Origin: Allomuricauda sp. TMED12 | GTDB lineage: Bacteria > Bacteroidota > Bacteroidia > Flavobacteriales > Flavobacteriaceae | Length of the DNA stretch: 64,000 bases | Reading direction: 5' to 3' | Assembly: GCA_002167435.2 (NCBI GenBank) | Contig: NHBR02000140.1 | Coordinates: 1 to 64,000, forward strand | In this document: positions 7,970 to 37,044 of the stretch, piece after piece | How the letters are laid out: every line of letters starts with the position of its first letter | How positions within the stretch are numbered: the first letter of the stretch is position 1 | The notes under the pieces: generated by a model | The model's database searches: none | Told to the model about the DNA's origin: nothing | Seen by the model: only the letters and a program-made list of their open reading frames with translations | Position numbers and translations under genes: made by a program

Positions 7970-7974
7970 GCGCT

Positions 7975-11104: not shown

Positions 11105-11548
11105 TCAAAAAACCTCCAAGATTGATTGGCCTTTCCCGTTAAAAACAAAGTTTTCACCCTTCTCTTTTCCAATAAGCAATTTAGCAATGGGCGCATTGGC
11201 CGAAATACAGTAAACAATCCCTTGGTCATGCTTAAACGCTCCTGTTGATATAGCGATAAAATAATCGGCCATACTGGTTTTTACCAAAGATCCCAAACGA
11301 ATTTTGTTCGATCGTTTATCAATTTTGATTTTATTGAGAATGCTTCGGGTTGCATCGAGTTCCTGTAATTGTTGGCCCAGTTTTTCCTGTTCCAATTGCA
11401 CCATGGCCCGTCCTGTTTCGTGCTTGTCACCTGCAGAACTTTTAGTTTCGGAATTCAGGGATTCCCAGAGTTCATCACCCTGTTTTTTGAGACGGGTGGT
11501 TCTTTCGTCCACATAGCTCCAGCAGAAATCTAAAAGCGCTTGTTTCAT
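11105..11548 (-). CDS. Gre-like (GreA/GreB-fold) protein with N-terminal coiled coil
   Basis: ATG at 11548 gives 147 residues; a TTG at 11563 would overlap the upstream kinase and is less likely. Residues 5-75 form a helical hairpin with the tip sequence SSAGDKHETG, and the C-terminal half (KIRLGSLVKTSMADYFIAIS ... ILEVF) fits the Gre C-terminal fold. Relatives in Bacteroidota are often labelled 3-oxoacyl-ACP synthase, but no ketosynthase motif exists here. In GreA/GreB two acidic residues at the coiled-coil tip enable RNA cleavage by RNA polymerase; D and E are present in the tip here. It is the last gene of the regulator-kinase operon on this strand. Confidence 0.72.
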   Translation of the reverse strand: MKQALLDFCWSYVDERTTRLKKQGDELWESLNSETKSSAGDKHETGRAMVQLEQEKLGQQLQELDATRSILNKIKIDKRSNKIRLGSLVKTSMADYFIAISTGAFKHDQGIVYCISANAPIAKLLIGKEKGENFVFNGKGQSILEVF

Positions 11549-11555
11549 AGTTTGA

Positions 11556-14271: not shown

Positions 14272-14332
14272 GGGGCGCTGGATTAATTTTCTTAGTTAAA
14301 ACTAGTAATTGCTTTGATATGTTTTAACCTGA

Positions 14333-14371
14333 TGTAAAATATTTTGACATTTTTTGTATAAAAGTTTTACA
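14333..14371. promoter_or_regulatory. Dyad upstream of the efflux operon, activator-site candidate
   Basis: TGTAAAA (14333-14339) and TTTTACA (14365-14371) are perfect inverted arms, 32 bp apart (about three helical turns). They lie 64-100 bp upstream of the TGGCAC element at 14435, in the range where NtrC-type activators bind, between the regulator gene and tolC. Binding is inferred. Confidence 0.45.
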
Positions 14372-14434
14372 CCTAATGAGTGCTTGTTGTTGATTTAATA
14401 TCATAATTAACTGATAATCAATATATAATAAATT

Positions 14435-14463
14435 TGGCACAAGAATGGACAGTAGTTTGGCAC
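14435..14463 (+). promoter_or_regulatory. Duplicated TGGCAC elements before tolC, degenerate sigma54 promoter candidate
   Basis: TTTGGCACAAG (TGGCAC at 14435-14440) and TTTGGCACAGG (TGGCAC at 14458-14463) are near-identical, 23 bp apart. TGGCAC is the exact sigma54 -24 element. At the -12 position of the first copy the sequence is TGGAC instead of TTGCA, and the second copy has AAAA, so neither is a full promoter by consensus. The first would start transcription near 14461, just before the tolC ATG at 14475. Confidence 0.4.
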
Positions 14464-14474
14464 AGGATAAAATT

Positions 14475-15809
14475 ATGAGTCTAAAAACATACATAACAAC
14501 CTTATTATTATTTACTGCATTCATTGGGGTTTCCCAAGAGGTGTGGACCTTAGAAGAATGTGTGGACTATGCCATTGAGCACAACCTTCAGGTAAAGAAT
14601 ACTTCTTATAACAACGAATCTAGCAGGGAATCTTATAGACAGTCTGTCAGGGATTTGTTGCCTTCGGTAAATGGTTCCACCGATTATAGTATTAGATACG
14701 GTAGATCTGCAGATCCACAGACCAACGATTTTGTGAATACGCAGTTCTTCAGTAATAATTATTCCCTTAACGCCAATTTGGACTTGTTTCGTGGATTTCA
14801 AAAATTAAACACCATCAGAGCCTCCAAGTTCATTTACAAGGCTACCCAAGAAGATATTCTACAAGAAAAGTTTTTGTTGGCTTTTAGGGTAATGAGTGCC
14901 TATTACGATATCAAGTTTTTCGAAGGTTTGGTGGCCAATTCCTTGGAACAACTGGAAATTTCACAAGGAAATTATGATTTGGTCAAAAAACAAGTGGAAC
15001 TTGGGCTAATGGCCGGTGCCGACCTTTATGAAGCAGAGTCCAATCTTTTGGGAGATAAATTGTTGTTGACACAGAATAGAAACCAACTTACAAATGCCAA
15101 GCTGGTCTTGATTCAAGAAATGAATTTGACCGAAGTGTCTGATATAAAACTAAAAGAAAGCTTGGAAGAAACTTTGTTGAATGAAGATGTTACTTTGGAT
15201 TCCCTGTACCAATCCGCCAGAGGATTTGTGCCCTTGGTAAAATCGCAAGAATATAGGGTAACAGCAGCCAAAAAACAATTGCAGGCCACAAGAGGGGGGT
15301 TGTTTCCTTCTTTATCACTTTTTGCGGGTTACGGAACCAGCTATTTTGAGACCAATGTGGATGAAAATGGCAATGTTATACCTTTTAGAACACAGTTTAG
15401 TGATAACACGTCCAAGTTTGTTGGGGCACAATTGAATATTCCCATAAGTAATGGATGGTCCAACCATTCCAGAGTTAAGCAGCAGAAGATAGCGTATATG
15501 CAGGCCAAGAATAATTTGGAGATTCAGGAGCAGGAACTTTTTCAGTTGTTGCAACAACTTGTTCAAGATAACAGGGCTCTAATTGCAGAATACGAACAGA
15601 GTGCAAAACAAGTAGAATCACAGCAAATCGCTTTTACCATAGCGCAAAAGAGATATGAAAAAGGACTGATCAATGCCTTGGAACTTTTTCAGGCAAAGAA
15701 CCTTTACGGTGTTGCGCAGAACCAAAACCTACAAGTAAGCCTAAGGTTAAAAGTCAACCAAAGTACCATTGACTTTTATAACGGGCTACCAATTTTTAAT
15801 ATCAACTAA
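14475..15809 (+). CDS. TolC-family outer membrane efflux protein
   Basis: ATG at 14475 opens directly on a signal peptide (MSLKTYITTLLLFTAFIGVSQ); the frame from 14445 would add ten residues in front, so the later start is chosen. The 444-residue product begins with WTLEECVDYAIEHNLQVKN, the classic outer membrane factor opening, and has two similar helical halves (TolC repeats) with long coiled coils such as the C-terminal YEKGLINALELFQAKNLY. TolC trimers form the outer membrane duct for tripartite pumps. It is the first gene of the long operon and is 8 bp from the adaptor gene. Confidence 0.93.
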   Translation: MSLKTYITTLLLFTAFIGVSQEVWTLEECVDYAIEHNLQVKNTSYNNESSRESYRQSVRDLLPSVNGSTDYSIRYGRSADPQTNDFVNTQFFSNNYSLNANLDLFRGFQKLNTIRASKFIYKATQEDILQEKFLLAFRVMSAYYDIKFFEGLVANSLEQLEISQGNYDLVKKQVELGLMAGADLYEAESNLLGDKLLLTQNRNQLTNAKLVLIQEMNLTEVSDIKLKESLEETLLNEDVTLDSLYQSARGFVPLVKSQEYRVTAAKKQLQATRGGLFPSLSLFAGYGTSYFETNVDENGNVIPFRTQFSDNTSKFVGAQLNIPISNGWSNHSRVKQQKIAYMQAKNNLEIQEQELFQLLQQLVQDNRALIAEYEQSAKQVESQQIAFTIAQKRYEKGLINALELFQAKNLYGVAQNQNLQVSLRLKVNQSTIDFYNGLPIFNIN

Positions 15810-15817
15810 AAAATACG

Positions 15818-17068
15818 ATGGATATACAATTAGAGAAAAAGAAAGGACTTAAGCTTAAGCACTACGGCTATATCGCATTGGGGATATTGCTCTTGTTTTT
15901 TGGCTATAAATTGATTTTCGCCAGTTCCATGTCCACTTTTAGAACGGAAAAGGAGCGTTTGTCCCTTTCCACAGTAACCGATGGCAAGTTTGATGATTAT
16001 ATTACCATAAATGGGAATGTAGCCCCAATTGCCACCATTTATATGGATGCCTATGAAGGAGGGCGTGTTTCCGAAAAATTGATAGAAGAAGGTTCCATGG
16101 TAAATAAAGGAGACATTATTCTAAAACTGGAAAACATGGCCCTTTATGAGCAGATTTTGGCCAGCGAAAGTAATCTGGCACTAAAGCAGAACGACCTGCG
16201 CTCTACCAAACTAACTTTTGATTCGAGACAGGTTGAAGGTAGAAAATCCTTGGCCACAGCTCAATACGATGTCCAAAGGCTAAAACGAGCCTATGAGCAG
16301 AACCAAGAGTTGTATGAAGAAGAATTGATTTCCAAGGAAACTTATTTAAAGTCTAAGGAAGACTACGAATTGGCGCAAAAGCAATACGAAATCGTAAAGC
16401 TACAGACCGAGCAGGATGATGAATTGAGGGAAACCTCCTTAAAAGGATTGGATACCGACTTGGCGCGTATGCAAAAAACGTTGTCCATGGTCTACGAACG
16501 TTTGGATCATTTAAATGTTCGCGCGCCCGCTGATGGGCAGCTTGGGTTTTTGGATGCCGAAATCGGTCAAAATATTTCGCAGGGACAACGTATTGGACAA
16601 ATTAACGTGCTTACGGACTTTAAAATTGAAGCCGATATTGACGAGCACTACATTGATCGTGTAAAAAGAGACCTTTCCGCCACTTTGGAACGTAATGGCA
16701 ACGAATTCAAATTGCGCTTGCGAAAAGTATACCCTGAGGTAAGGAACGGCAGGTTCCGCGTAGACTTGGTTTTTGTGGACGAAAAACCTGAAACCATTCG
16801 CGCAGGGCAGAGCTACAACATACGATTGCAATTGGGCGAATCCAACAATGCCCTTTTGTTGCCCAAGGGAGGCTTTTTCCAAAGTACAGGAGGCCAATGG
16901 GTATTTGTAGTTAATCCTGATGGCAACGAAGCCATTAAACGTAATGTACGATTGGGAAAACAAAATTCAAGATATTATGAAGTCCTCGAAGGACTTCAAC
17001 CAGGAGAACAGGTCATTACCAGTAACTACGATAGTTTCGGTGATGCGGAACGGATTGTGCTGAAATAA
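15818..17068 (+). CDS. HlyD/MacA-type periplasmic adaptor
   Basis: The 416-residue protein has one N-terminal membrane helix (about 17-36), a split lipoyl-like domain (GGRVSEKLIEEGSMVNKGD near residues 75-95 and LNVRAPADGQLGFL after the hairpin), a long coiled-coil hairpin (about 115-225), a beta-barrel domain and a membrane-proximal C-terminal domain. This is the RND/MacA membrane-fusion architecture that bridges an inner-membrane permease to TolC. It lies between tolC and the first ABC ATPase, as in macAB-tolC systems. Confidence 0.93.
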   Translation: MDIQLEKKKGLKLKHYGYIALGILLLFFGYKLIFASSMSTFRTEKERLSLSTVTDGKFDDYITINGNVAPIATIYMDAYEGGRVSEKLIEEGSMVNKGDIILKLENMALYEQILASESNLALKQNDLRSTKLTFDSRQVEGRKSLATAQYDVQRLKRAYEQNQELYEEELISKETYLKSKEDYELAQKQYEIVKLQTEQDDELRETSLKGLDTDLARMQKTLSMVYERLDHLNVRAPADGQLGFLDAEIGQNISQGQRIGQINVLTDFKIEADIDEHYIDRVKRDLSATLERNGNEFKLRLRKVYPEVRNGRFRVDLVFVDEKPETIRAGQSYNIRLQLGESNNALLLPKGGFFQSTGGQWVFVVNPDGNEAIKRNVRLGKQNSRYYEVLEGLQPGEQVITSNYDSFGDAERIVLK

Positions 17069-17136
17069 TTCGTAAAAATGTAACATCAATCAAAAGAGCG
17101 TAGTCTTTAAATAAAACATAAAACAACCATCAAAAA

Positions 17137-17832
17137 ATGATACAGATAACAGATCTTAAAAAAAGTTTCCGAACGGAGGAAGTAGAAACCTTGGCTTTGA
17201 ACGGTGTAAACCTAAAAGTGGAAGAGGGTGAATTCGTGGCAATCATGGGCCCATCCGGGTGTGGAAAGTCCACTTTGCTGAATATTATTGGCATGCTGGA
17301 CAACCCTACGGAGGGCAGCTACAATTTTGCAGGGCACGAAGTGGGCGGATTAAAAGAAAGCCAGCGAACCCAACTTAGAAAAGGTAATCTTGGCTTTGTG
17401 TTCCAAAGCTTTAACCTTATTGATGAGCTTACTGTTTTTGAAAACGTGGAACTTCCCTTGATTTACCTTAAAATGAACAAGGCCGAACGCAAGGAAAAGG
17501 TGATGAAGGTGTTGGAGCGCATGAAGATTGCACATAGGGAAAAGCATTTTCCACAGCAACTTTCGGGAGGACAGCAACAAAGGGTCGCCATTGCCCGTGC
17601 GGTAGTCACCAATCCAAAACTAATTTTGGCGGATGAGCCAACAGGTAATTTGGATTCCAAAAACGGTATCGAGGTAATGAACTTGTTGACAGAACTAAAC
17701 CAAGAAGGTACCACCATTGTGATGGTAACACATTCCGATCGCGATTCGCATTATGCACACAGGGTCATCAACCTATTCGACGGTCAAATTGTGACAGAAA
17801 GCCAAAACAAACCTATGGGAGCAATGGTATAG
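17137..17832 (+). CDS. ABC transporter ATP-binding protein, MacB/LolD class (ATPase 1)
   Basis: The 231-residue ATPase has Walker A GPSGCGKST (38-46), Q-loop in FVFQSFNLI, signature LSGGQQQRVAIARA, Walker B LILADEPTG, D-loop NLDSKNG and the switch His in VTHSD. All catalytic motifs are standard. Short stand-alone ATPases of this class drive FtsX/MacB-type permeases that work by mechanotransmission rather than by moving substrate through the membrane. A 68-bp gap separates it from the adaptor gene; P1 begins 30 bp downstream. Confidence 0.95.
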   Translation: MIQITDLKKSFRTEEVETLALNGVNLKVEEGEFVAIMGPSGCGKSTLLNIIGMLDNPTEGSYNFAGHEVGGLKESQRTQLRKGNLGFVFQSFNLIDELTVFENVELPLIYLKMNKAERKEKVMKVLERMKIAHREKHFPQQLSGGQQQRVAIARAVVTNPKLILADEPTGNLDSKNGIEVMNLLTELNQEGTTIVMVTHSDRDSHYAHRVINLFDGQIVTESQNKPMGAMV

Positions 17833-17862
17833 TAGTTTATTCATCAATCAAAAGCGAACATT

Positions 17863-20220
17863 ATGTTCAGGAACTATCTTAAAATCGCTTGGCGAAATCT
17901 TTGGAAAAACAAGGGGTATACCGCGTTAAATATTTTTGGGCTGGCCATAGGGATTACCTGTGCTAGCCTAATATTGCTTTGGGTAGAGGATGAAGTGAAC
18001 TATGACAAAGTTTTTCCCAAAAGAGACCAAGTATATTATGTGCCCACAAATAACCTTTTTGAAGGTGAATGGCGTACATTCTATGAATCTGCACCAGGAC
18101 CTCTGGCAAAAGCAATAAAAGATGAAATTCCTGGCGTAATTGGTAGTGCAAGAACAGTAGGGGAAAATCTTTTGTTTACTGTTAACGACAATGGCATTAA
18201 CAAAAATGGCCGATATGTCGACCCAGATTTTATAAGCATGTTCAGCCTTTCTTTTGTTGAGGGAGACATGGCAAATGCCTTTAAGGATTTTGATGCCATT
18301 GTAATTTCAAAAAAGTTGGCGACCCAATTATTCGGTCAAGGCACAAAGGCCTTGGGCAAAGTGATCAAGATCAATAATGAGTCAAATTATAGGGTCACTG
18401 GTGTTTTTGAAGACCTGCCCAACAACGTAACCATTAAATTCGATTGGGTTGCTCCCTTTGAAAGGTTCGCCGTTGGAAAAGATTGGATGAATGATTACCA
18501 AAACGGATTTGCCGACACATTTGTTGAGCTTACTCCAGAAGCCGATTTTGAGACCGTGAACGCAAAAGTGGAGAAGCTTATTCCTTCAAAAACTGGAAAA
18601 GAAGGTAAATATGCCTTTCTGCACCCAATGAAAGATTGGCATTTACGCTCTGGTTTTGAGAACGGAAAAAAAGTTGGCGGTCAGATAACCTATGTGCGTT
18701 TATTTTCCCTGATAGCAATAATAATTTTGCTGATTGCCTGTATTAATTTCATGAACCTTTCCACAGCCAGCAGTGAAAAAAGGGCAAAAGAAGTAGGGGT
18801 ACGTAAAGTGTTGGGTTCCAACAAAAACAGATTGATCATACAATTCATGGCAGAAGCTTTGCTTACAGCAACCATGGCTACAATAGTAAGTGTTCTACTG
18901 TTGGTTCTTCTTCTACCCATGTTCAACACGCTGGTTCAAAAACAAATTGAGCTAAACTTTTTCAGTTATATCCATCTGTTCTCTCTTTTGGGGATTAATC
19001 TTATTTGTGGTGTTCTTGCTGGATGGTACCCGGCCTTCTATTTATCCTCTTTCAAGCCAATAAAAATAATTAAGGGAGTAAAGGTCAAAGAGGGCAGTGC
19101 CCCTATAATTCGAAAGAGCCTGGTCGTTGCACAATTCACGGTTTCCATTGTATTTATAATCAGTACCATTATTGTATACCAGCAGATTGAGCATGTAAAA
19201 AGCCGCGATATGGGATATGACAGAGAAAATCTTATACAACTTCCGGTAAACGGCAATGTATTAAAGGATTTTACACCCATAAAACAGGAAATGATTGCTT
19301 CTGGCACTGTTGAAAATGTTGCCCTTTTAAATACTTCCATTCTTTCAGGAGGGAGCAATAGTTCTGGTTGGGAATGGCAAGGAGGTAAAGACACCAAGGG
19401 TGTGCTCATTTCCCATAGATTTATTAGTTCTGACTTTTTTGATACAACAGGCCTGGAAATTATTGAAGGTCATGGTTTCAGTGATAAGGTTGCATTGGAC
19501 AGCACAAATGTGTTGATAACACAATCTCTCGCCAAATTAATGGGTGACGAAAGTGCTGTTGGTAAAATAATACACCGAGATGAAGACGCGTATACGGTGA
19601 TAGGTGTGGTCAAAGATTTTTTATATGGCAACATGTATAAAACAAGTGATCCGGTAATGTTCTTTAACTACCCCCAGTATACCTATAACATGTATGTAAG
19701 GGCAAAGTCTGGCTATACTATGACATCCATTCTTGCCTCAATGGAAAAAGTAATGAAAAAATACAACCCCGCTTTTCCTTTTGAGTACGAGTTTGTTGAT
19801 GAAGCTTTTAGTTCAAAATTCAAAAGCGAAAAACTTGTGGGCAGCCTTTCGAAGATTTTTGCACTACTTGCTATTGTTATTTCTTGTTTAGGGCTATTTG
19901 GCCTTTCCACATTTACAGCAGAGCAACGAAGAAAGGAGATAGGCATACGAAAGGTCCTTGGGGCATCCGTGGCCAAAATCAGCCAAATGCTTTCCATGGA
20001 TTTTGCCAAGTTGGTGCTATTGGGTTTGCTAATAGGTTTTCCACTGGCATATTTTTCAATGGAAAATTGGCTTGAAGGGTTTGCCTATAGAATTGAAATC
20101 CAATGGTGGGTATTTGCCCTTGCCGGCATTATTGCTCTCGGTATTGCCCTTTTAACGGTAAGTTTTCAATCCATAAGGGCTGCATTAACAAATCCCGTCA
20201 AAAGCCTAAGAACAGAATAA
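17863..20220 (+). CDS. MacB/FtsX-type ABC permease P1 (subtype A)
   Basis: 785 residues with the double-FtsX plan: membrane helix near the N terminus (about 20-42), periplasmic MacB core domain, three membrane helices (about 281-396), a second helix and periplasmic domain, then three final helices. Cytoplasmic coupling segments that dock on the ATPase are RAKEVGVRKVLGS (about 307-319) and RRKEIGIRKVLGA (about 689-701). The protein ends NPVKSLRTE. It shares long local identity with P3, for instance the WHLRSGFENGKKVGG and INFMNLSTA segments, and less with P2. Confidence 0.93.
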   Translation: MFRNYLKIAWRNLWKNKGYTALNIFGLAIGITCASLILLWVEDEVNYDKVFPKRDQVYYVPTNNLFEGEWRTFYESAPGPLAKAIKDEIPGVIGSARTVGENLLFTVNDNGINKNGRYVDPDFISMFSLSFVEGDMANAFKDFDAIVISKKLATQLFGQGTKALGKVIKINNESNYRVTGVFEDLPNNVTIKFDWVAPFERFAVGKDWMNDYQNGFADTFVELTPEADFETVNAKVEKLIPSKTGKEGKYAFLHPMKDWHLRSGFENGKKVGGQITYVRLFSLIAIIILLIACINFMNLSTASSEKRAKEVGVRKVLGSNKNRLIIQFMAEALLTATMATIVSVLLLVLLLPMFNTLVQKQIELNFFSYIHLFSLLGINLICGVLAGWYPAFYLSSFKPIKIIKGVKVKEGSAPIIRKSLVVAQFTVSIVFIISTIIVYQQIEHVKSRDMGYDRENLIQLPVNGNVLKDFTPIKQEMIASGTVENVALLNTSILSGGSNSSGWEWQGGKDTKGVLISHRFISSDFFDTTGLEIIEGHGFSDKVALDSTNVLITQSLAKLMGDESAVGKIIHRDEDAYTVIGVVKDFLYGNMYKTSDPVMFFNYPQYTYNMYVRAKSGYTMTSILASMEKVMKKYNPAFPFEYEFVDEAFSSKFKSEKLVGSLSKIFALLAIVISCLGLFGLSTFTAEQRRKEIGIRKVLGASVAKISQMLSMDFAKLVLLGLLIGFPLAYFSMENWLEGFAYRIEIQWWVFALAGIIALGIALLTVSFQSIRAALTNPVKSLRTE

Positions 20221-20245
20221 ATCAATCAATCAAAAAACGAATCAT

Positions 20246-22663
20246 ATGTTCAAAAACCACCTAAATATCGCTTGGAGAACCATCAAAAAAGATAGGCTCT
20301 TCACTTTTATCAAAATAGGAGGTTTTGCAGTGGGCATTGCTGCCTGTCTATTGATCGCCTTATTTATTCGAAACGAACTCAGTTACGATCAGCATTATGC
20401 CAACAAGGATCAAATGTACAGAGTGGTTTTTCAAGGGGTGCTACAGGGAGAAGTAATGAAAAGCACACATTTTCAATTACCGTTCGCCGATGCACTTCAG
20501 TCCGATTTTCCGGAAATTGTTAAAGCAGGAAAGGTCAATACCATCGAAATTTTTGGAGCAGGGAAGCGCGGCTTTAGAATCAATGGGGAACGGGAGAGTA
20601 CATTTGAGGAGAACTTTATTATTGCGGACCAGGAGGCTTTTGATATTTTGGAAATCAACTTGGAGCAGGGCGACGCAACAACGGCCTTGACCAATCCCAA
20701 GAGCCTTGTAATCTCCAAATCCAAAGCAGACAAGTATTTTCCCAACGGAAATGCCTTGCAGCAGACCGTATTTTTGGATAACGATACGTCCAATCCCTAT
20801 ACGGTAACGGGAGTGATGCAAGATGTGCCAAAAAACTCACATTTGGATTTTGATTTTATGCTTCCTGTAGAAGATAACTATGGAGGTTGGACCAATCAGA
20901 ATTACTTTACCTATGTGCTTGTAAACCCCAATACCAATATTCAGGAGTTGGAACAAAAAATGTCCTTGATCGTTGAAAAATATATCATTCCAGCACAGAT
21001 AAAACGAGGGCGCTCCGAATCTTTTCTCGATGTGCTGAGAACAGCTGAATATAAACTACAGCCGGTATCTGATATCTATTTAAAGTCCGATCTTAAAATG
21101 CAGGATGGCCTTAAGCATGGAGACATCAAATTTGTATGGCTTTTCGCGGCCATAGCCATTTTTGTGTTACTGTTGGCCATTATAAACTTCATTAATCTTT
21201 CCACGGCCAAATCGGCCAATAGGGCCAAAGAGGTTGGTCTCAGAAAAACAATTGGTGCCTTCAGGAACAACTTGGTCAACCAGTTTCTTACGGAGTCCGT
21301 GATCTTCAGTATCATTTCCTTTGTGTTGGGCATTGTGCTTGCATGGGCCTTACTACCCACCTTTAATGAGATTGCCGACAAGAACATGGTGCTGCCTTGG
21401 TCGAATTGGTGGTTTGCCGCGGTATTGTTGATCTCTGCATTACTAGTTGGAGTTTTGGCAGGACTGTACCCTGCGTTTTATTTATCCGCATTTAGGCCGG
21501 CAAGTGTACTAAAGGGAAAATTGAGCATCGGCAGCAAGAGCGGAAAGTTGAGGAGCGGGTTGGTGGTTTTTCAGTTTACCACTTCGGTCATTTTGATCAT
21601 TGGGACCTTGATCATATACCGCCAGATGGATTTTATTGTAAGCAAAGAATTGGGGTATGACAAGGAAAAGGTAGTAGTACTTGAGGGAACCAATGTCCTT
21701 GCCGGAAAAATGGAATCGTTTAAAGAACAACTATCCGCCTTGTCACAGGTAAAAAGCGTAACAGCGTCCAATTATTTGCCCGTTGATGGCGGCAGTAGAA
21801 ATGGAAATACATTTATGGTTGATGGCCAAGATGATGGTGGTAGGGGAATCCCTGCCCAAATTTGGAAGGTGGACTACGATTATATAAAAACCCTGGGCAT
21901 TCAACTACAGAAAGGGAGAAGTTTCTCCAAAGAATTTGCATTTGATTCTATTAATTCCATAGTCATCAATACCAAAATGGCGTCAGAATTGGGTCTTCTG
22001 GACCCCATTGGCAAAAAATTGAACAACAACAGTGAGGTCTTCACCATTATTGGGGTTATCGAGGACTTCCATTTTAAATCCTTGAAAGAAGATATTTCTG
22101 CCTTGTCCTTGGTAATCGGTAAGGATATAGGGTCCATTTCGCTAAAATTGGAAAAGGGAAATCCAGCCGATGCCCTGGCATCCATCGAAAAAGTTTGGAA
22201 CAAAAACATACCCAATCAGGCGCTCAACTATACCTTTTTGGAGCAGGAGTTTGCTCAAATGCACAATGATGTGCGGCGTATGGGAAAAATATTCAACAGT
22301 TTTGCACTTTTTGCCATTCTTGTAGCTTGTTTGGGATTGTTTGCACTCTCTGCCTTTATGGTGGAACAACGAAGAAAAGAAATCAGTATTCGAAGAGTAC
22401 TGGGTGCTCCTTTCAAGAACATCTATCAATTGCTTACCATCGATTTCTTAAAGTTGATATTGATATCCATCTGTATTGCCATACCAATAGGTTGGTATTT
22501 AATGAATCGTTGGCTGGAGGATTTTGCATACAGAATTTCCATAGGTTGGGAAATCTTTTTAACAGCGGCGTTTATTGCATTAGGTATTGCCGTACTCACT
22601 ATAAGTTACCAATCCGTCGGGGCAGCTTTGCTGAAACCAACCAAGGGCTTGCGCACGGAATAA
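20246..22663 (+). CDS. MacB/FtsX-type ABC permease P2 (subtype B)
   Basis: 805 residues, same double-FtsX plan. Coupling segments are RAKEVGLRKTIGA (from about 326) and RRKEISIRRVLGA (from about 708), the second slightly divergent (ISIRR for IGIRK). The second periplasmic domain contains LSQVKSVTASNYLP and a Trp-Lys-Val-Asp-Tyr stretch that match P4 (LSQVNTATLSSYLP, WRVDQDY) rather than P1 or P3, defining subtype B. It starts 25 bp after P1, behind an A-rich ribosome-binding region, and ends LRTE. Confidence 0.93.
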   Translation: MFKNHLNIAWRTIKKDRLFTFIKIGGFAVGIAACLLIALFIRNELSYDQHYANKDQMYRVVFQGVLQGEVMKSTHFQLPFADALQSDFPEIVKAGKVNTIEIFGAGKRGFRINGERESTFEENFIIADQEAFDILEINLEQGDATTALTNPKSLVISKSKADKYFPNGNALQQTVFLDNDTSNPYTVTGVMQDVPKNSHLDFDFMLPVEDNYGGWTNQNYFTYVLVNPNTNIQELEQKMSLIVEKYIIPAQIKRGRSESFLDVLRTAEYKLQPVSDIYLKSDLKMQDGLKHGDIKFVWLFAAIAIFVLLLAIINFINLSTAKSANRAKEVGLRKTIGAFRNNLVNQFLTESVIFSIISFVLGIVLAWALLPTFNEIADKNMVLPWSNWWFAAVLLISALLVGVLAGLYPAFYLSAFRPASVLKGKLSIGSKSGKLRSGLVVFQFTTSVILIIGTLIIYRQMDFIVSKELGYDKEKVVVLEGTNVLAGKMESFKEQLSALSQVKSVTASNYLPVDGGSRNGNTFMVDGQDDGGRGIPAQIWKVDYDYIKTLGIQLQKGRSFSKEFAFDSINSIVINTKMASELGLLDPIGKKLNNNSEVFTIIGVIEDFHFKSLKEDISALSLVIGKDIGSISLKLEKGNPADALASIEKVWNKNIPNQALNYTFLEQEFAQMHNDVRRMGKIFNSFALFAILVACLGLFALSAFMVEQRRKEISIRRVLGAPFKNIYQLLTIDFLKLILISICIAIPIGWYLMNRWLEDFAYRISIGWEIFLTAAFIALGIAVLTISYQSVGAALLKPTKGLRTE

Positions 22664-22685
22664 ATCAATTAAAAAACCATCAATC

Positions 22686-25085: not shown

Positions 25086-25110
25086 CTATCATCATCAAAA
25101 AACAAGAATC

Positions 25111-27543: not shown

Positions 27544-27562
27544 ACAATTTAAAACACCAACC

Positions 27563-30013: not shown

Positions 30014-30023
30014 ACTTTAAGTT

Positions 30024-32426
30024 ATGATGAACTTTTTAAAACTGGCATTTCGCAGATTGTTCCGAAAAGGCGAACATGCCCTTACCAGAATCATATCATT
30101 AACAGCAGGTTTGGCTTTCGGAATACTGCTACTTTCCGAAGTGCTCTACTACTTTAGTTACGATAGTTTTTATCCAGATGCCGATCGTATCCATGTAGTT
30201 CACGAAAATTTTAAAATGGATAAGTCTTCCGATCAATTGGAAAGCTATCCAAGAGTCAGTGGGGCCATTGCGCCGGGTTTAAAGGCAGAAGTACCTGGCA
30301 TTGAGGCAGCCACCCGCCTCAATGCCTTGGGAGATCATATGATCTATACAAATGACTTCAACAGCTATAGTGCCACCATTTCATTGGCAGACGAACATCT
30401 GTTTGATGTGCTTCCTGTTCCTATGGTTAGTGGCAATCCCCGGGAAATTTTAAAAAGCCCCATGACCTGTATGGTCTCTCAGGAAATTGCGGATAATATA
30501 GGGGGCAATGTTATTGGAAAGGTTGTTGAAATAAAGAATTATCCGGGCAAAAAGCTCACCATAGGCGGTGTATTCGAAACCTTACCAGAGAACACCAACT
30601 ATACATATGATGTTTTGATTTCCATGGTGTCCACCGAACAGTTTACTTGGGATGGCACTGAAAACTGGATGGGCAATGACCGGTATTATGCCTGTGTAAA
30701 GTTGAGTCCGGGCGTTAGTCCTGCAGACTTGGCTCCAGGTGTTCGGGCCATGCAGGTAAAACATCAAGATATTGAAAAGCTGGAAGAAGAACATCAAGGA
30801 GTCGTGTTACAATATTCATTTATGCCCATTACAGAAATGCATGTGGACAATGTAAAGGATATGATCATTATTCTGGTCACCATTGCCCTTTCGGTATTGT
30901 TCGTTTCCTTGATGAACTACATTCTCTTGACCATGGGAACACTGATTACAAGAGCAAAGAGCTCTGCCATTCACAAAACCTGTGGGGCGGAGAGCAAGAA
31001 CTTACAACAGATGATCTTTTCCGAGACTGTGGTCATTTTCTCTGTTTCAATATTGGGCGCATTGCTTTTGATCTGGGGATTGAAGCCCGTGGCAGAGGCA
31101 CAATGGGGACATAATCTAACCTCTGTACTGAACCCATACGTTATTATCCCTTTGACCTTGTTAATGGTACTTTTAGTGCTTATTACCAGTTATTTCCCCG
31201 GACGTTTTTTTTCGCGTATCCCTGTGGCAACAGCTTTTCGCGATTATCAACAGAAAAAAGGCAAATGGAAACTGTTCCTGCTATCCTTTCAATTTATAGG
31301 AGCAACATTTATACTCACCGTTTTGGTGATTGTGACCCTTCAATATAATAGCATGAAAAATGCTGACCACGGTTATCTTACTGAAGGGGTCTATTACGGC
31401 TCTACCGAAGGTATGGACGGGAACAAAGTTGATATGGTCTTGAACGAGCTAAGGGCCATGCCCGAAATAGAGACTGTCGGTTTAGGGTATGACGTCCCTA
31501 TAAATGGCGCAGCGGGAAATAATATTCTTTCGCCCGACGGTAAACAGGAGTTGTTCAATATAGCTGATTTTTATGAGGCTGATGGCAATTATTTATCCAT
31601 ATTGGGCATTAAAGTATCTGAAGGCGAGAACTTTATAAGTGGCCAAACAGCGGCCAACGATGTCATTATTAGTAAAAAAGGCGCGGAATTGCTTAAACTG
31701 AACAATGGTTGGACAGATGGTGTCGTGGGAAAACAGATTACCGTCACTGAACATGGAAATACAACAATACAGGGCGTTTACCCAGATTTTGTAGTACAAT
31801 CAATTTCAAACCCAGATGTTCGTCCATCCGCATTTTTTTATCAGCCAGAAGAAAAGTTTGAACAACTCAAAATAGAAGACCCTTCCACGTCATTCAATAT
31901 CATGGTAAAGGTTCATGAAGGTGCCCAAGATGGAATTATCGATAAAATCACCGATATTTTTAACTTAGGTTTCCCTCGCGAAGATGCGGAGATAAAAAGT
32001 CTCGAAGCAGAACAATTGAATGCCTACAAAGGTCAAAAAGGATTCCGAAATGCCATGCTGATAGGAAACATCATTATTCTTTTGGTTACCATAATCGGGT
32101 TGCTCGGTTATACCTTCAACGAATCTGCCCGACGAAGAAAAGAACTGGCCATTAGAAGAATAAGCGGAGCGACGCTTTCAGATATATTAAAATCGTTCAT
32201 TTCCGATTTGGAATTTGTCGCCGTTCCTGCTGTGTTGCTGGGGTTGATAGGTGCTTGGCTTACGGTGGACAAATGGATGCAAAACTTTGCTTTTAAAGTG
32301 CCGCTGCATTGGGGGATATTTGCCGTATGTAGCCTCTCCATCTTATTACTGGTGGCATTGATCGCTGCTATAAACTATACACGGACCGCCAATCAAAACC
32401 CTGTAGATTCATTGCGTCAGGAATAA
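30024..32426 (+). CDS. MacB/FtsX-type ABC permease P6, divergent coupling helices
   Basis: 800 residues (start ATG 30024, or the adjacent ATG 30027). The double-FtsX layout and the C-terminal NPVDSLRQE are kept, but the first coupling segment reads RAKSSAIHKTCGAES (from about 310) instead of RAKEIGIRKTLGS, and the second reads RRKELAIRRISGA (from about 704). The acidic residue and the glycine of the KEIG motif are lost in the first. The reading frame is complete and shows no sign of decay, so this looks like a specialised permease, perhaps with different ATPase contacts, rather than a pseudogene. Confidence 0.9.
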   Translation: MMNFLKLAFRRLFRKGEHALTRIISLTAGLAFGILLLSEVLYYFSYDSFYPDADRIHVVHENFKMDKSSDQLESYPRVSGAIAPGLKAEVPGIEAATRLNALGDHMIYTNDFNSYSATISLADEHLFDVLPVPMVSGNPREILKSPMTCMVSQEIADNIGGNVIGKVVEIKNYPGKKLTIGGVFETLPENTNYTYDVLISMVSTEQFTWDGTENWMGNDRYYACVKLSPGVSPADLAPGVRAMQVKHQDIEKLEEEHQGVVLQYSFMPITEMHVDNVKDMIIILVTIALSVLFVSLMNYILLTMGTLITRAKSSAIHKTCGAESKNLQQMIFSETVVIFSVSILGALLLIWGLKPVAEAQWGHNLTSVLNPYVIIPLTLLMVLLVLITSYFPGRFFSRIPVATAFRDYQQKKGKWKLFLLSFQFIGATFILTVLVIVTLQYNSMKNADHGYLTEGVYYGSTEGMDGNKVDMVLNELRAMPEIETVGLGYDVPINGAAGNNILSPDGKQELFNIADFYEADGNYLSILGIKVSEGENFISGQTAANDVIISKKGAELLKLNNGWTDGVVGKQITVTEHGNTTIQGVYPDFVVQSISNPDVRPSAFFYQPEEKFEQLKIEDPSTSFNIMVKVHEGAQDGIIDKITDIFNLGFPREDAEIKSLEAEQLNAYKGQKGFRNAMLIGNIIILLVTIIGLLGYTFNESARRRKELAIRRISGATLSDILKSFISDLEFVAVPAVLLGLIGAWLTVDKWMQNFAFKVPLHWGIFAVCSLSILLLVALIAAINYTRTANQNPVDSLRQE

Positions 32427-32452
32427 GTATAACCCATCAAAAAACAAAAACA

Positions 32453-34867
32453 ATGCTAAAGAACTATCTAAAAATTGCTTGGAGAAATTTGATAAAGAAC
32501 AAGGTGTTTACATTGGCAAACATCATAGGTCTTTCCAGTGCCTTTGCTGTGGCCATACTTCTTGTGATGACGGCACTATTTGAGCTGTCGTTCGACTCTT
32601 TCCATGAAAACAAAGCCTCGGTTTATCAATTGTACCTCAGCAACCAAACACCAAGGGGTACAGAGATCGGCACTTCCAACCCGGTACCACTTGCCCCGGC
32701 CCTTATGGATGAAGTTTCGGGTATAAAAAGGGCTGTTAGAAGAGTCAGTGAAGATGCTTTGGTCACTTTTAACAACAAAGAACTCAACTTGGATGCCGAG
32801 TATGTGGACCCTTCATTTTTTGAAATCTTCACCTTTCCGGCGCTATTGGGCAATACCGAGAGCCCTTTGCCCGATAAAAACAGTGTGTCCCTTTCGGAAG
32901 AATCGGCCCAGAAAATTTTTGGCAGCACGGACAATGTCATCGGTAAAACACTCTCCTTGAAGATCGGCAAGGAAGAAAGGCCTTTTACCGTTGCATCGAT
33001 TTTGCAAAACTCCCCTGCTAATTCCAGTATTGACTTCGATATCGTAATCCCGTTCGAAAACCATCCAGAATATGAAACCGACAAGGATCGTTGGGACTCT
33101 CAATTCCTCCCAATTTTTATCCAGTTGGACAAGGGTGTTTCTGTAGCTCAATTCGAGGAAAACACCGTTCCCTTTACCGAACTTCATTACCAGGGGGGTA
33201 TTGAAAGTGATATCCGCGATGGGGCGGTCCCTGATGCCAATGGGAAATATAAACAATTTCATTTGATGCCTATTTCCAATATGCACTTTGCGACTTATAA
33301 ATCTGGGGTTGCCATAGTAAACCGTACATTTCCCTATATGATTTTGGGCATCGCATTCGTGATTATTTTTATCGTGAGTGCCAATTTCATTAATATGAGC
33401 ATTGCGCTCAGTGAAAAACGGTTGAAGGAAATAGGGATGCGAAAAACCCTGGGGGCCGTTAAAAAGCAGCTGTTTATTCAATTTTGGATGGAAAGCCTCT
33501 TTGTTTTTGGTATTTCCCTTGTTCTTGGATTGGTGGCGAGCAACATGCTGTTGCAGCCTTTTAAAACCCTTTTCAATACAAAAGCCTCCTTTGCCGATGT
33601 CGCACAACCCAACGTAATTTTTTTCTTTGGCATAGCCATTTTCTGTATAACTCTTGTCGCAGGAGGATATCCTGCTCTTTTGATGTCCAAATTGAGTACA
33701 CTTCGGGCCCTAAAAGGGAAATTGGATTTGGGCAAAAACCGATTGCGGAACAGCTTGATCGTGCTTCAATTTACGATTGCCATTATTTTGATCAGTGGAA
33801 CTTTGGTCCTTCATGGCCAAATTGAATTTATGCGGAACAAAGATCTTGGGTATAATAAAGAGCAGGTTGTCTCCATTCCCTTAAATGGTAAAAAGGACAG
33901 CTATCGAGTAGTGGAACTCTTACGCAATGAACTTAAGGGGAATCCGGATATCTTGAACGTTTCCGGGGCAGACAATAATTTGGGGAAGGGTCGCGATGGT
34001 AGCCTTTCCAGCAGTATGATGGGCTTCGATTTTGAAGGACGGGGCGTGGTCACCAACACCATTACCGTAGATTATGATTACGCCAAGACCCTTGATCTGG
34101 AATTGGTTGCCGGGCGTATGTTCGACCGGAATTATGCCGCTGATAGTCTGTCACTGGTAATCAATGAGAGCATGGCCAAACAATTGGGAAAAGAAGACCC
34201 GCTAGCGGTTAGCATTCCAATGGACGATAGCACTGCGTATTCGGTTGTTGGAGTGGTAAAAGACTATAATTTTCAGGAAATGAGCAGGGAAATTAAGCCT
34301 CTTACCCTGTTCATGAACAAAGATTGGGACCTCTACTATGCCTACGTCAAAATTGCGCCAAAGAATGTAGCAAAATCATTTGAGGCCATTGAGACAGCTT
34401 GGGAAAAAGTGGAGCCACAAGCTGAGTTTTTAGGCTCTTTTTTGGATGAAAATGTCGACCGCACTTTTAGGCGCGAAAAAACAATGACGACTATTGTGAC
34501 CAGTGGAAGTATTCTTGGTATTTTGTTAAGTTGCATTGGACTCTTTGCCATTTCTATGTTGGTGGTGGCACAACGGACCAAAGAAATAGGAGTGCGAAAA
34601 GTGGTCGGCGCCAGTGTATCCTCAGTGGCACTTTTACTGACCAAGGATTTTTTAAAGTTGGTGGGTCTTGCCTTTATCATTGCAACACCGATAGCTTGGT
34701 ATTTTTTAAACGAATGGCTCCAGAACTATGCTTCGCATGTTGCCCTCAGCCCTTTGTTTTTTGTGGCTGCAGGCCTTACAGCTTGTTGGATTGCTTTTAT
34801 TACTGTGGGCTCTCGGACCCTTAAAGCAGCATCTGCCAATCCTGTTAGAAGTTTAAGAGACGAATAA
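32453..34867 (+). CDS. MacB/FtsX-type ABC permease P7
   Basis: 804 residues. Coupling segments RLKEIGMRKTLGA (from about 323) and RTKEIGVRKVVGA (from about 708) are intact. The N-terminal MLKNYLKIAWRNLIKNK is close to P1 and P3, but the periplasmic domains are distinct (for example DNNLGKGRDGSLSSSMMGFD in the second). The protein ends NPVRSLRDE. It is the last permease; the serine hydrolase gene follows after 16 bp. Confidence 0.93.
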   Translation: MLKNYLKIAWRNLIKNKVFTLANIIGLSSAFAVAILLVMTALFELSFDSFHENKASVYQLYLSNQTPRGTEIGTSNPVPLAPALMDEVSGIKRAVRRVSEDALVTFNNKELNLDAEYVDPSFFEIFTFPALLGNTESPLPDKNSVSLSEESAQKIFGSTDNVIGKTLSLKIGKEERPFTVASILQNSPANSSIDFDIVIPFENHPEYETDKDRWDSQFLPIFIQLDKGVSVAQFEENTVPFTELHYQGGIESDIRDGAVPDANGKYKQFHLMPISNMHFATYKSGVAIVNRTFPYMILGIAFVIIFIVSANFINMSIALSEKRLKEIGMRKTLGAVKKQLFIQFWMESLFVFGISLVLGLVASNMLLQPFKTLFNTKASFADVAQPNVIFFFGIAIFCITLVAGGYPALLMSKLSTLRALKGKLDLGKNRLRNSLIVLQFTIAIILISGTLVLHGQIEFMRNKDLGYNKEQVVSIPLNGKKDSYRVVELLRNELKGNPDILNVSGADNNLGKGRDGSLSSSMMGFDFEGRGVVTNTITVDYDYAKTLDLELVAGRMFDRNYAADSLSLVINESMAKQLGKEDPLAVSIPMDDSTAYSVVGVVKDYNFQEMSREIKPLTLFMNKDWDLYYAYVKIAPKNVAKSFEAIETAWEKVEPQAEFLGSFLDENVDRTFRREKTMTTIVTSGSILGILLSCIGLFAISMLVVAQRTKEIGVRKVVGASVSSVALLLTKDFLKLVGLAFIIATPIAWYFLNEWLQNYASHVALSPLFFVAAGLTACWIAFITVGSRTLKAASANPVRSLRDE

Positions 34868-34883
34868 ATTCATTCCGTAATAA

Positions 34884-36380
34884 ATGAAAACTAAATTTTT
34901 GAAGGTCTTATTTCTGGTGTTGACTGTCGGATATACCGTTCTTGCCCAAGAAGATATAAATAACAATAACCTCGAATTTAAAATAGACAATTACTTGAGC
35001 AAAAGTGTGGCCAATGGCTATTCTGGAAGTGTTCTAGTGGCCAAAGAAGGTGAAATTGTTTTTTCTAAAGGTTATGGTTGGGCCGATAGATCGTTGAAAA
35101 TAAGGAATACACCAGCCACTGTGTTTAATATTGGCTCGGTGACGAAGCAATTCACTGCAGCTGCCATATTAAAACTCATGGAAGACCAAAAGCTGGATGT
35201 TTCTGATAACATTGAAAAGTATTTTCCACAAGCACCTTTAGATAAAAAGGATATCACAATACATCAATTGCTTACCCATACATCTGGAGTATCACCCAGT
35301 ACGGGAGGTTTCAGGTATGATAAAGCGAGCAAAGAAACATTCCTGAACGATTTTTTCGAATCAGAATTAATGTATTTGCCTGGCACAAAACATACGTATG
35401 CCAATGCCAACTATATCTTGTTGACAGCTATTGTTGAACAAGTTGCTCAACAAGATTACGAGACCTTTTTAAGGAATAACTTTTGGACGCCATTGCAAAT
35501 GAACCATACGGGATACAAAGGGATTACCTTTGATAGCGAGCAACTTGCCCACGGATACTATTTTCATTACACGGATGGTGAGTGGAGGGACTGGGGAACC
35601 ACACAAGAACATCTCCCTTATAATAATGAGCATTGGTACAGTATAGGTAAAGGTGACATATATTCCACCGTAGAGGATTTGTATACGTGGCACCGAGCAC
35701 TCGAAAACAATAAAGTGCTGTCTTCGGAAACAATAAAGTTGATGGAAGAAGACCATGTTCCGGAAAATGAAACACAAACATCTTTTTATGGTTATGGTTG
35801 GGCGATATTCAATTCAAAGAACAATTCAAAAATTGTAGCACATAATGGAAGTAATGGGATTTACTTTGCCGATTTTCTCCGGTTCGTGGAAGATGATCTT
35901 GTTATCATTGCTTTGTCCAATGTTATTTTAAACCAAAAATCAGAGAATGTGGCATGGGAAATAGCTTCAATGGTGCTGGATGAAGAATATCGCCCCAAAA
36001 CAATCCCAAAAAACAAGTATGAACTGGTTTTTGACTTTATTAGATCAAACACTCCCGATAAAGCAAATCAATTGCCTCAATTTATTGAGACCAAATCGGG
36101 CAGCACAATAAACGACAAGGCACTATTGAACCGAATCGGATTTAAGCAAGTGTCCGAAAACAGGGATACAGATTGGGGCATCTCACTTTTAAAGCTCAAT
36201 ACCCGTCTTTTTCCTGGCGATGGTAACCTTTGGGATTCACTTGGAGAAGGATATTATATAATCAACGACAGGGCAAAAGCAGTTGAAAGTTTTGAGAGAG
36301 CTATGGAGTTAGGCCCGGAAACCAATTGCTATTGGTGCGAAAATGCAACAAAAAGATTAGAGGAATTAAACAACAAATAA
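34884..36380 (+). CDS. Exported beta-lactamase-fold serine hydrolase with C-terminal TPR-like region
   Basis: The 498-residue product has a signal peptide (to about residue 21, VLAQ), the nucleophile motif S85-V-T-K88, the second motif YAN near residue 172 (HTYANANY) and the third motif HNG near residue 319. This is the class C beta-lactamase / CubicO fold used by penicillin-binding-like peptidases and esterases. The last ~100 residues contain a TPR-like pair of helices (DSLGEGYYIINDRAKAVESF). Embedded between P7 and ATPase 2 with 16 bp and 1 bp gaps, it must be cotranscribed with the pump; a role in processing an exported peptide or envelope substrate is possible but inferred. Confidence 0.88.
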   Translation: MKTKFLKVLFLVLTVGYTVLAQEDINNNNLEFKIDNYLSKSVANGYSGSVLVAKEGEIVFSKGYGWADRSLKIRNTPATVFNIGSVTKQFTAAAILKLMEDQKLDVSDNIEKYFPQAPLDKKDITIHQLLTHTSGVSPSTGGFRYDKASKETFLNDFFESELMYLPGTKHTYANANYILLTAIVEQVAQQDYETFLRNNFWTPLQMNHTGYKGITFDSEQLAHGYYFHYTDGEWRDWGTTQEHLPYNNEHWYSIGKGDIYSTVEDLYTWHRALENNKVLSSETIKLMEEDHVPENETQTSFYGYGWAIFNSKNNSKIVAHNGSNGIYFADFLRFVEDDLVIIALSNVILNQKSENVAWEIASMVLDEEYRPKTIPKNKYELVFDFIRSNTPDKANQLPQFIETKSGSTINDKALLNRIGFKQVSENRDTDWGISLLKLNTRLFPGDGNLWDSLGEGYYIINDRAKAVESFERAMELGPETNCYWCENATKRLEELNNK

Positions 36381-36381
36381 G

Positions 36382-37044
36382 ATGCTATTACAACTAAACA
36401 ACATATTTAAATGGGTGCATTCAGGAGGTCAACGCTTCTTTTTGCTCAAGGACATTAACCTGGAAGTGGAAGAAGGAGAATTTATCTCTGTAATGGGACC
36501 ATCGGGCTCGGGAAAATCGACATTGCTCAACGTTATCGGCATGTTGGACACCTTTGACGAGGGAGAGTATAATTTCTTGGATGAATCCGTTCATTCTTTA
36601 AAGGAGAAACACCGATCCAATCTATATAAACAATACATTGGCTTTGTGTTTCAATCCTATCATCTGTTGGATGATCTTACGGTTAAGGAAAACCTGGAGA
36701 TGCCGTTGATCTATAAAAAAATAAAGGGTTCCGAGAGAAAAGCCATGGTTGCCGATATGCTGGACAGGTTCAACATTGTTGGCAAAAAAGATTTGTTTCC
36801 TGCTCAACTAAGTGGAGGCCAACAACAATTGGTCGGGGTGGCGAGAGCCTTGATTGCCAATCCAAAATTGATTTTGGCAGATGAGCCAACGGGTAACCTG
36901 AACTCTAAACAAGGTGAGGAGATCATGGAACTGTTTAAACAATTGAACAGTGAGGGCGTAACCATAATTCAGGTGACGCACTCCGAGAAAAATGCCGAGT
37001 ACGGCTCAAGAGTCATTAATTTATTGGACGGGAGAATGGTTTGA
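36382..37044 (+). CDS. ABC transporter ATP-binding protein, MacB/LolD class (ATPase 2)
   Basis: The 220-residue ATPase has Walker A GPSGSGKST (39-47), Q-loop FVFQSYHLL, signature LSGGQQQ (about 143-149), Walker B LILADEPTG and switch His in VTHSEK. Two positions differ from ATPase 1: the signature flank reads LVGVARA where RVAIARA is usual, and the D-loop is NLNSKQG, with Asn for the normally invariant Asp. The catalytic Glu after Walker B is present, so it may still hydrolyse ATP, possibly with changed dimer behaviour. It starts 1 bp after the hydrolase stop codon and ends the operon. Confidence 0.92.
   Translation: MLLQLNNIFKWVHSGGQRFFLLKDINLEVEEGEFISVMGPSGSGKSTLLNVIGMLDTFDEGEYNFLDESVHSLKEKHRSNLYKQYIGFVFQSYHLLDDLTVKENLEMPLIYKKIKGSERKAMVADMLDRFNIVGKKDLFPAQLSGGQQQLVGVARALIANPKLILADEPTGNLNSKQGEEIMELFKQLNSEGVTIIQVTHSEKNAEYGSRVINLLDGRMV

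Follow-up and report, generated by a model that had tools for sequence, protein, structure and literature searches.

The window analyzed here, a stretch of 64,000 nucleotides from Allomuricauda sp. TMED12 (Flavobacteriaceae, Bacteroidota; positions 1 to 64,000 of contig NHBR02000140.1, assembly GCA_002167435.2), carries a one-strand operon in which seven double permeases of the Type VII ABC (ATP-binding cassette) kind are lined up between two unequal ATPase genes, and arrays with a related frame and a variable number of permeases occur in further members of the genus, the family, and the phylum. The genome comprises 4.34 Mb on 150 contigs, and the genomes closest to it are listed under the names Allomuricauda, Flagellimonas or Muricauda. 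The operon occupies positions 14475-37044 of the plus strand and encodes, in this order, a TolC protein, a HlyD-type adaptor, the first nucleotide-binding domain ATPase (NBD1), the permeases P1 to P7, a PF00144 hydrolase and the second ATPase (NBD2). The features are listed below, with the occurrence of each permease given as a share of the complete genus loci defined further down.

11556-12908, minus strand: histidine kinase with two N-terminal transmembrane (TM) helices, a loop of few residues, a weak PAS match and HATPase
12898-14271, minus strand: sigma-54 response regulator, divergent to the operon (Response_reg, Sigma54_activat, Fis-type HTH)
14333-14371, no strand assigned: paired TGT-N11-ACA palindromes, 22 bp apart, their sole occurrence in the 4.3 Mb genome
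14433-14462, plus strand: sigma-54-like -24 element TTTGGCAC with a weak -12 (GG-N10-GA), from the alignment of upstream regions
14475-15809, plus strand: TolC-family outer-membrane efflux protein (PF02321; TIGR01844 match under the cut-off)
15818-17068, plus strand: periplasmic adaptor of the RND_mfp/HlyD type, DarC-like by profile matches
17137-17832, plus strand: NBD1, canonical ATPase with LSGGQQQR and NLDS (ABC_tran match, motifs)
17863-20220, plus strand: permease P1 (PF12704 and PF02687 twice each, as in all seven); 7/28
20246-22663, plus strand: permease P2; 12/28
22686-25085, plus strand: permease P3, core; 28/28
25111-27543, plus strand: permease P4, core, structure modeled; 27/28
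27563-30013, plus strand: permease P5; 9/28
30024-32426, plus strand: permease P6, the most divergent; 4/28
32453-34867, plus strand: permease P7; 21/28
34884-36380, plus strand: serine hydrolase PF00144 with a signal-like N-terminus (S-x-x-K, Y-A-N and H-N-G found by eye)
36382-37044, plus strand: NBD2, ATPase with the altered signature LSGGQQQL and the D-loop NLNS (ABC_tran match, motifs)

A sequence-only reading of this DNA had described seven tandem double-FtsX permeases in a one-strand operon with TolC, adaptor and ATPase genes, and the open reading frame (ORF) coordinates and Pfam matches confirm this. All seven are intact (785-816 aa, one terminal stop per ORF), have the double MacB_PCD/FtsX organization that places them in the Type VII ABC (MacB) superfamily, and are separated by gaps of 25, 22, 25, 19, 10 and 26 bp. 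Their pairwise identities of 19-41% (19-24% for P6 against the others) indicate that the array is neither a recent duplication nor an assembly repeat. The ORF call for TolC spans 14445-15809; the start at 14475 is preferred, directly ahead of the signal-peptide-like MSLKTY.... The layout also supports the earlier proposals of one likely transcription unit with a shared adaptor and duct, and of a division of substrates among the permeases, which is the likeliest use of the set. A Pfam scan of 18 neighbors, extending to 45.8 kb and leaving small ORFs aside, revealed no gene for peptide biosynthesis, in agreement with that reading. The divergent kinase and regulator genes (11556-14271), absent from that description, are part of the conserved frame.

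Besides the window, the genus sample has 35 genomes; the locus was fetched from 33 of them (G006 gave no match, and G029 was left out), and ORFs were labeled by BLAST against the window genes; with the window and record L042, this gave 35 ordered genus loci. A locus was considered complete if TolC, NBD1 and NBD2 all lay within the stretch, which is the case for 28, whereas G005a, G009, G011, G013, G026, G023b and L042 were excluded from the complete-locus counts. ORFs of more than 600 aa were counted as permeases, shorter permease pieces (three in G002, of 296, 455 and 124 aa; two in G285, of 597 and 200 aa) were left uncounted, and ORFs under 90-150 aa were outside the analysis. The two pieces in G285 (L174) are the split first permease of that array, perhaps a decaying member or a sequencing error, and the case of G002 is similar.

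In all 28 complete loci the genes for kinase, regulator, TolC, HlyD, NBD1 and NBD2 occur in one order, and all permeases sit between NBD1 and NBD2. The array is flanked on one side by a Gre-like gene (26 loci) and on the other by DAO and accC (27 loci) and by accB and fabH (26 loci), and identities among the 28 loci are 90-100% for NBD1 and 76-99% for the regulator. The recurrence of the same frame with a related run of permeases indicates that the arrangement is not due to chance.

Within this fixed frame whole permease genes are gained and lost. Array size ranges from 4 to 14 permeases with a median of 7 (window included), seven being no special number, and only one of 378 locus pairs has an identical permease content. 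Permease identities across the genus show a main peak at 25-40% and a second, broad mode at 50-90%; single linkage at 50% identity resulted in 33 groups, 11 of which are confined to one locus. For pairs of groups that co-occur in at least three loci, the majority order is kept in 480 of 502 instances (95.6%), compared with a mean of 66% and a maximum of 71% over 500 shuffles, and the values at 45, 55 and 65% linkage are 95.7, 95.6 and 97.4%. The free shuffling of permeases that the sequence-only reading had named as speaking against it is thus not seen. The data do not support seven permeases as an invariable set that works step by step or as an obligate hetero-oligomer, as P1, P2, P5, P6 and P7 are each absent somewhere, arrays contain between 2 and 30 permeases, and each permease, judging by the model of P4, is predicted to be a fused pseudo-dimer already.

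The wider range derives from the family, for which 249 genomes were searched with NBD2 as the query (E 1e-62). Matches of 74-100% identity were found in 56 genomes, two of them genus members (this genome included), followed by a sharp drop to at most 57% identity; the window's own NBD1 is among these weaker matches. In 53 of the 54 NBD2-bearing family genomes outside the genus, one contig carries both genes in the same orientation, with such an NBD1-like gene 4.9-80.2 kb upstream of NBD2; in G124 the two are on different contigs. Strict quantization of these intervals was considered and rejected (best period 2490 bp, concentration only 0.49), and gene counts were used instead. Twenty-five of the 54 loci, chosen for very large and small intervals, were read gene by gene, and all 25 have their 2-30 permeases between one NBD1 and one NBD2. 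A P3-type permease (at least 50% identical to the genus group) is present in 22 of them, including two-permease arrays. Two types of frame are found, one starting with TolC and the other with HlyD and having a distant TolC-like gene after NBD2. The largest array, in G275 (L139-L143), runs from NBD1 to NBD2 over 81.6 kb and has 37 genes on one strand, among them 30 permeases of 785-828 aa (median identity 31%) and five accessory ORFs; that of G076 (L144-L148) has 27 permeases with embedded exported proteins.

Among 395 sampled genomes of the phylum, 74 (window included) encode an NBD2-type protein of at least 59% identity. Fourteen loci outside the family, picked for adjacency of the NBD genes or for large intervals, were read. 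Permeases lie between the ATPases in G406 (16), G434 (14), G545 (12) and G481 (8 of 9), and in six loci (G353, G341, G635, G493, G414 and G517) NBD1 adjoins NBD2 and the permeases are elsewhere in the unit, G353 having no full double permease in the fetched stretch. The layout of G438 is other or incomplete, as it is in G323, G477 and G654. At locus L054 of Chitinophaga barathri, six permeases are enclosed by NBD1 and an NBD2-like gene that is cut off. The array of G406 (L188-L190) is interrupted by five ORFs on the opposite strand, like an inserted island.

Structure was modeled for one permease only, P4 (AlphaFold2; pLDDT 81, pTM 0.75). The model has eight long hydrophobic helices in two four-helix units, each with a periplasmic domain after helix 1 and a coupling helix after helix 2, and the halves are joined by a short loop of low confidence (residues 415-431); P4 is thus predicted to be a fused MacB dimer of eight helices. 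Its best structural match is YbbP (Z 24, 670 residues, rmsd 9.2), with further matches to a Porphyromonas permease domain, BceB, MacB and LolE; by sequence profile the Porphyromonas domain and MacB match best. Across representatives of the 33 groups, conservation is among the highest at the ends and in the coupling regions and mostly lowest in the periplasmic stretches. The coupling regions differ between the two halves (RAKEVG.RK..GA in one, QR.KEIGIRKVLGASV in the other), as would suit a single chain in contact with two different ATPases, its feet common to the array and its heads private.

The two ATPases differ consistently. NBD1 has the LSGGQQQR signature and an NLD D-loop whose aspartate is present in 71 of 71 sequences, whereas in NBD2 the arginine of the signature is replaced by L, I, M or V in all 71, and the D-loop aspartate by asparagine in all 57 from Flavobacteriaceae (the other 14 comprise 12 with histidine, one with asparagine and one misread by the pattern). 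NBD2 retains Walker A, the Walker B glutamate and the H-loop histidine. The other ATPases of this genome with readable motifs (L201, L203, L205, L206, L209-L212 and L216) have R or K in the signature and D in the D-loop, the signature of the remaining ones being unreadable by pattern. Two unequal NBDs that are inherited together characterize heterodimeric ABC ATPases, and this systematic asymmetry, together with the joint presence of the genes and their adjacency in loci outside the family, suggests that NBD1 and NBD2 are two halves of one heterodimeric motor for all permeases. The sequence-only reading was right in counting two ATPases, which we consider better understood as the halves of one heterodimer.

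Upstream of the operon, the paired palindromes recur in 27 of the 29 regions aligned from the genus and in 18 of the 24 from the family and are a likely candidate for the regulator binding site. TTTGGCA or a near variant is present in all 29 genus regions and in 20 of the 24 family regions, and in 17 of these 20 it lies at -53 to -21. Next to the sigma-54 regulator gene, the first element combines a conserved -24 TTTGGCAC with a -12 that is at the usual spacing but weak. A second TTTGGCA 23 bp on (TTTGGCACAG at 14456-14465), just ahead of the TolC start codon, has no -12 partner and is conserved in nearly all aligned genus loci. The combination of two TTTGGCAC elements 23 bp apart upstream of TolC is conserved in the genus and occurs once in the genome. 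Scanning positions 14200-33000 yielded 47 promoter-like sites against 43.6 in shuffles, and 28 terminator-like sites against 18.8 (sd 5.4), those on the operon strand being all intragenic.

BceS is an intramembrane-sensing kinase encoded alongside BceAB, and the array kinase resembles this type in layout: a simple hydropathy rule finds two TM segments separated by a short loop in all 27 genus and all 9 phylum sequences and in 16 of the 20 from the family (one or three TM segments in the four remaining family kinases). A second pair of histidine kinase and sigma-54 response regulator is encoded near the array (6878-9300, plus strand), its regulator being present beside part of the genus loci, and the proposed wiring is therefore tentative. 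The Gre-type protein beside the kinase (11105-11563, minus strand; encoded at 26 of 28 genus loci) has a weak GreA/GreB C-terminal match below the cut-off, and a second one (9507-9923, plus strand) has a clear match of 51 bits; might such RNA polymerase factors help an operon of 20-80 kb? Further out, in the lower-GC left contig end, a GmrSD_N and HNH protein is encoded at 2648-4237 (plus strand), possibly a restriction-type gene.

The embedded hydrolase pointed out in the sequence-only reading is present in the window and optional elsewhere: of the 28 complete genus loci, five have a PF00144 hydrolase, each time as the gene immediately preceding NBD2. Seven of the 25 family loci have ORFs embedded between NBD1 and NBD2, 14 in total, all with signal-like N-termini as judged by eye. 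Eight were scanned, of which four have DUF2807 (head GIN domain) and one each an alpha/beta hydrolase, DUF2911, GH26 and PKD domain; the exported proteins embedded in G275 are of the alpha/beta hydrolase, GH26, DUF2911, DUF2807 and PKD types. A PADLOC scan matched no model for P4, P6 and the hydrolase and gave what look like generic ABC/AAA matches for NBD1 and NBD2, and anti-phage defense was rejected as a role.

The array has parts in common with several known systems and differs from each. It shares with MacAB-TolC of Escherichia coli the Type VII permease fold, the adaptor and TolC, both encoded with the permeases, and the tripartite layout. According to a passage of a 2018 review, MacB carries the ATPase on the same chain and is a homodimer of 4-TM units (PMC5985334), whereas the array has separate, unequal ATPases and fused permeases, 2-30 of them. 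The review also covers homodimers, heterodimers and fusions with two interceding helices, and the arrangement of the array is not among these (PMC5985334). YbbAP-TesA of E. coli has in common a fused double permease, a separate ATPase and a hydrolase partner, and is the best full-length structural match. The passage on it in PMC12646458 gives YbbP 10 TM helices, two of them linking, and the complex two copies of one ATPase; the array differs in the 8-helix model of P4, which lacks the linking pair, and in its two different ATPases, optional PF00144 hydrolase, adaptor and TolC. The hydrolase of YbbAP-TesA is bound at the periplasmic side of the permease; in the array, a hydrolase gene is present. 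The former is thought to receive substrates from the permease, which the embedded hydrolases recall, although most loci are without one. The YbbP model NF041854 (cut-off 999 bits) matched only P5, at 25.2 bits. A separate locus on contig 90 (L218:1204-5165) encodes an 845-aa YbbP-like double permease (311.8 bits against the YbbP model), a YbbA-like ATPase and a divergent TesA-like protein, all three under the curated cut-offs; this YbbAP-TesA-like locus appears to be a Bacteroidota counterpart, and the array is therefore not the YbbAP-TesA of this species.

The best NCBIfam match of all seven permeases is to the ADOP permeases (TIGR03434), with which they share the twofold domain order, the length and an alignment over the full length, and the best seven matches to this model in the genome are the seven window permeases; their scores of 137.7-319.4 bits lie below the cut-off of 622.3. 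ADOP permeases are named as orphans, having no adjacent ATPase gene, whereas the window run is bordered by NBD1 and NBD2. For the darobactin exporter DarBCD, the NCBIfam model of DarD matches both ATPases best and that of DarC the adaptor, and DarB ranks second for the permeases, again below the cut-offs (DarB 46-187 of 700, DarC 211 of 450, DarD 302 and 249 of 375 bits). The darobactin exporter has one permease and one ATPase. As all scores were below the curated cut-offs, ADOP, DarB and YbbP were rejected as family labels. BceAB-BceS shares the Type VII permease fold and the kinase encoded alongside; the array differs from it in having a sigma-54 regulator, an adaptor, TolC and two periplasmic domains per permease. 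In importers with a shared ATPase (MsiK/MsmK, FhuC) one ATPase is said to serve several permeases; by comparison, the array has an exporter-type fold and two unequal ATPases bracketing the permeases. The genome also has a MacB-type locus on contig 137 (L125-L126), whose permeases are half-size and which also encodes an NBD1-like ATPase (51%), a TolC-like protein and a protein that weakly matches an adaptor. No description of fixed-frame permease arrays was found in the literature searched, which is suggestive only, most subscription papers and preprints having been out of reach. The parts (Type VII permeases, adaptor, TolC and sigma-54 regulators) are already known; what seems to be new is the fixed-frame array, as a variant of Type VII ABC systems.

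For ten array genes including P5, P6 and P7, each compared with the orthologue of a relative, the proportion of nonsynonymous differences (pN) is 0.02-0.16 and that of synonymous differences (pS) 0.49-0.76. The ratio dN/dS is 0.016-0.080 where computable and is rough, since dS is 2.5-3.4 for P2, P4 and P7 and saturated for P5 and P6; pN against pS was therefore relied on. The low pN shows signs of purifying selection, and the genes seem to be used. Domain shuffling was rejected, as not one of 512 permeases (genus and first-fetched loci 265, the 25 family loci 174, the 14 phylum loci 73) has one half at least 60% identical to a relative elsewhere and the other half 20 points lower, a criterion that judges only permeases with a relative of at least 60% identity in another locus. 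Strikingly low synonymous difference was observed in 11 of 1120 permease and 8 of 2250 frame comparisons (which are not independent), no more than a hint of lateral transfer of single permeases. P1 (17863-20220) has a pS of 0.49 against L042, compared with 0.68-0.76 for the other array genes against L042, possibly a lateral exchange of one permease. The leader ATCAATCAAAA is found in 41 of 207 genus seams; the genome as a whole has 42 copies of it, compared with 2 of the reversed control, and it is perhaps a leader element. It is not specific to the array and was rejected as a recombination site shared between seams, and we claim no mechanism of recombination. The longest exact match between two window permease genes, leaders included, is 20 nt.

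We consider it probable (roughly 0.6) that one engine, consisting of ATPase pair, adaptor and duct, is shared by exchangeable permease heads. NBD1 and NBD2 would form an asymmetric ATPase pair able to dock on any permease of the array, and each permease would be a fused dimer of the MacB kind, its two coupling helices matched to the ATPase pair and its two periplasmic domains binding a substrate of its own. A permease together with the single HlyD adaptor and the TolC duct would constitute a Type VII mechanotransmission pump, the permeases taking turns on the shared engine. The intramembrane-sensing kinase and the sigma-54 regulator would switch on the whole unit from one promoter, optional exported hydrolases may process some of the substrates, and evolution would add or drop one permease gene per step between fixed borders. 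The operon would then offer a range of specificities for toxic amphiphiles or peptides arriving in the periplasm or the inner membrane; defense against such compounds is a role we propose tentatively, at rather less than even odds.

Several observations weigh against a shared engine within a fixed frame. The constancy of the frame is in part due to the choice of loci, since completeness was defined by TolC, NBD1 and NBD2, the conservation of order partly reflects common ancestry, and P3 and P4 stand in opposite order in two sets of genus loci. Of the 249 family genomes, 193 are without an NBD2 orthologue of the 74-100% grade. Outside the family, NBD2 is ahead of NBD1 in G323, G414 has a second NBD2-like gene, and the permeases between the ATPases are only 1 of 3 in G477, 2 of 3 in G654 and 8 of 9 in G481. 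Conserved coupling helices are expected of any paralogues, and the asymmetry of the NBDs may be compatible with two homodimers serving different permeases. As for control from a single promoter, the -12 element is weak, one weak promoter-like site (9/12) lies across the P5-P6 joint, and some gaps in G275, of 244-511 bp, have room for promoters.

The alternative that survives best concerns the role: the array could perform housekeeping work on the envelope, such as the extraction of lipids or lipoproteins as by LolCDE or YbbAP-TesA, instead of defense or export. We regard this as unlikely; the structural match of P4 to YbbP and LolE and the exported hydrolases within some arrays would suit it, but the operon includes TolC and an adaptor, the fast turnover of content better suits variable external substrates, and a separate YbbAP-TesA-like locus is already present in the genome. 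Slightly less likely still are two motors, in which homodimers of NBD1 and of NBD2 drive different permeases and form two sets of pumps with one duct. The ATPase genes do lie at opposite ends of the array in Flavobacteriaceae, and NBD2 with its retained catalytic motifs may hydrolyze ATP alone; set against this, every complete genus locus and each of the 25 family loci has both genes, the two stand side by side in six loci outside the family, and the same two types of coupling region are common to the permease groups. An obligate machine of several permeases, or an assembly line working stepwise on one substrate, appears improbable: the mostly conserved relative order and the operon-like spacing agree with it, whereas the number of permeases varies from 2 to 30, most are absent from some species, and P4 by prediction is already a fused pseudo-dimer. 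A silent cassette store, with the first permeases expressed and the others kept as a reservoir for exchange, could account for the turnover of content and the cases of low synonymous difference, yet it is very improbable in view of a pN well under pS for every permease, P7 included (dS being high or saturated for several), of intact ORFs with gaps of 10-26 bp, and of the lack, by the criterion used, of half-gene mosaics among the 512.

Taken as a whole, the shared engine would amount to a plug-in repertoire, in which one asymmetric ATPase pair with its adaptor and duct powers up to 30 substrate-specific heads under one membrane-sensing switch, with gain and loss gene by gene in a largely fixed order, as a heritable repertoire against membrane-active compounds in Bacteroidota; in this full form we hold it as a possibility somewhat short of an even chance.

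ABC exporters are usually viewed as having one motor per permease, and here one motor pair seems to keep 2-30 of them. The way in which a single engine could power so many permeases is a puzzle that can be put to the test, the window with its seven permeases being a mid-sized example, and the minimal two-permease arrays make the role of ADOP-like double permeases testable. The natural additions and losses of permeases across species offer a route to motor-permease pairing, adaptor sharing and substrate specificity, and this family of arrays bears on what marine Bacteroidota defend against or export.

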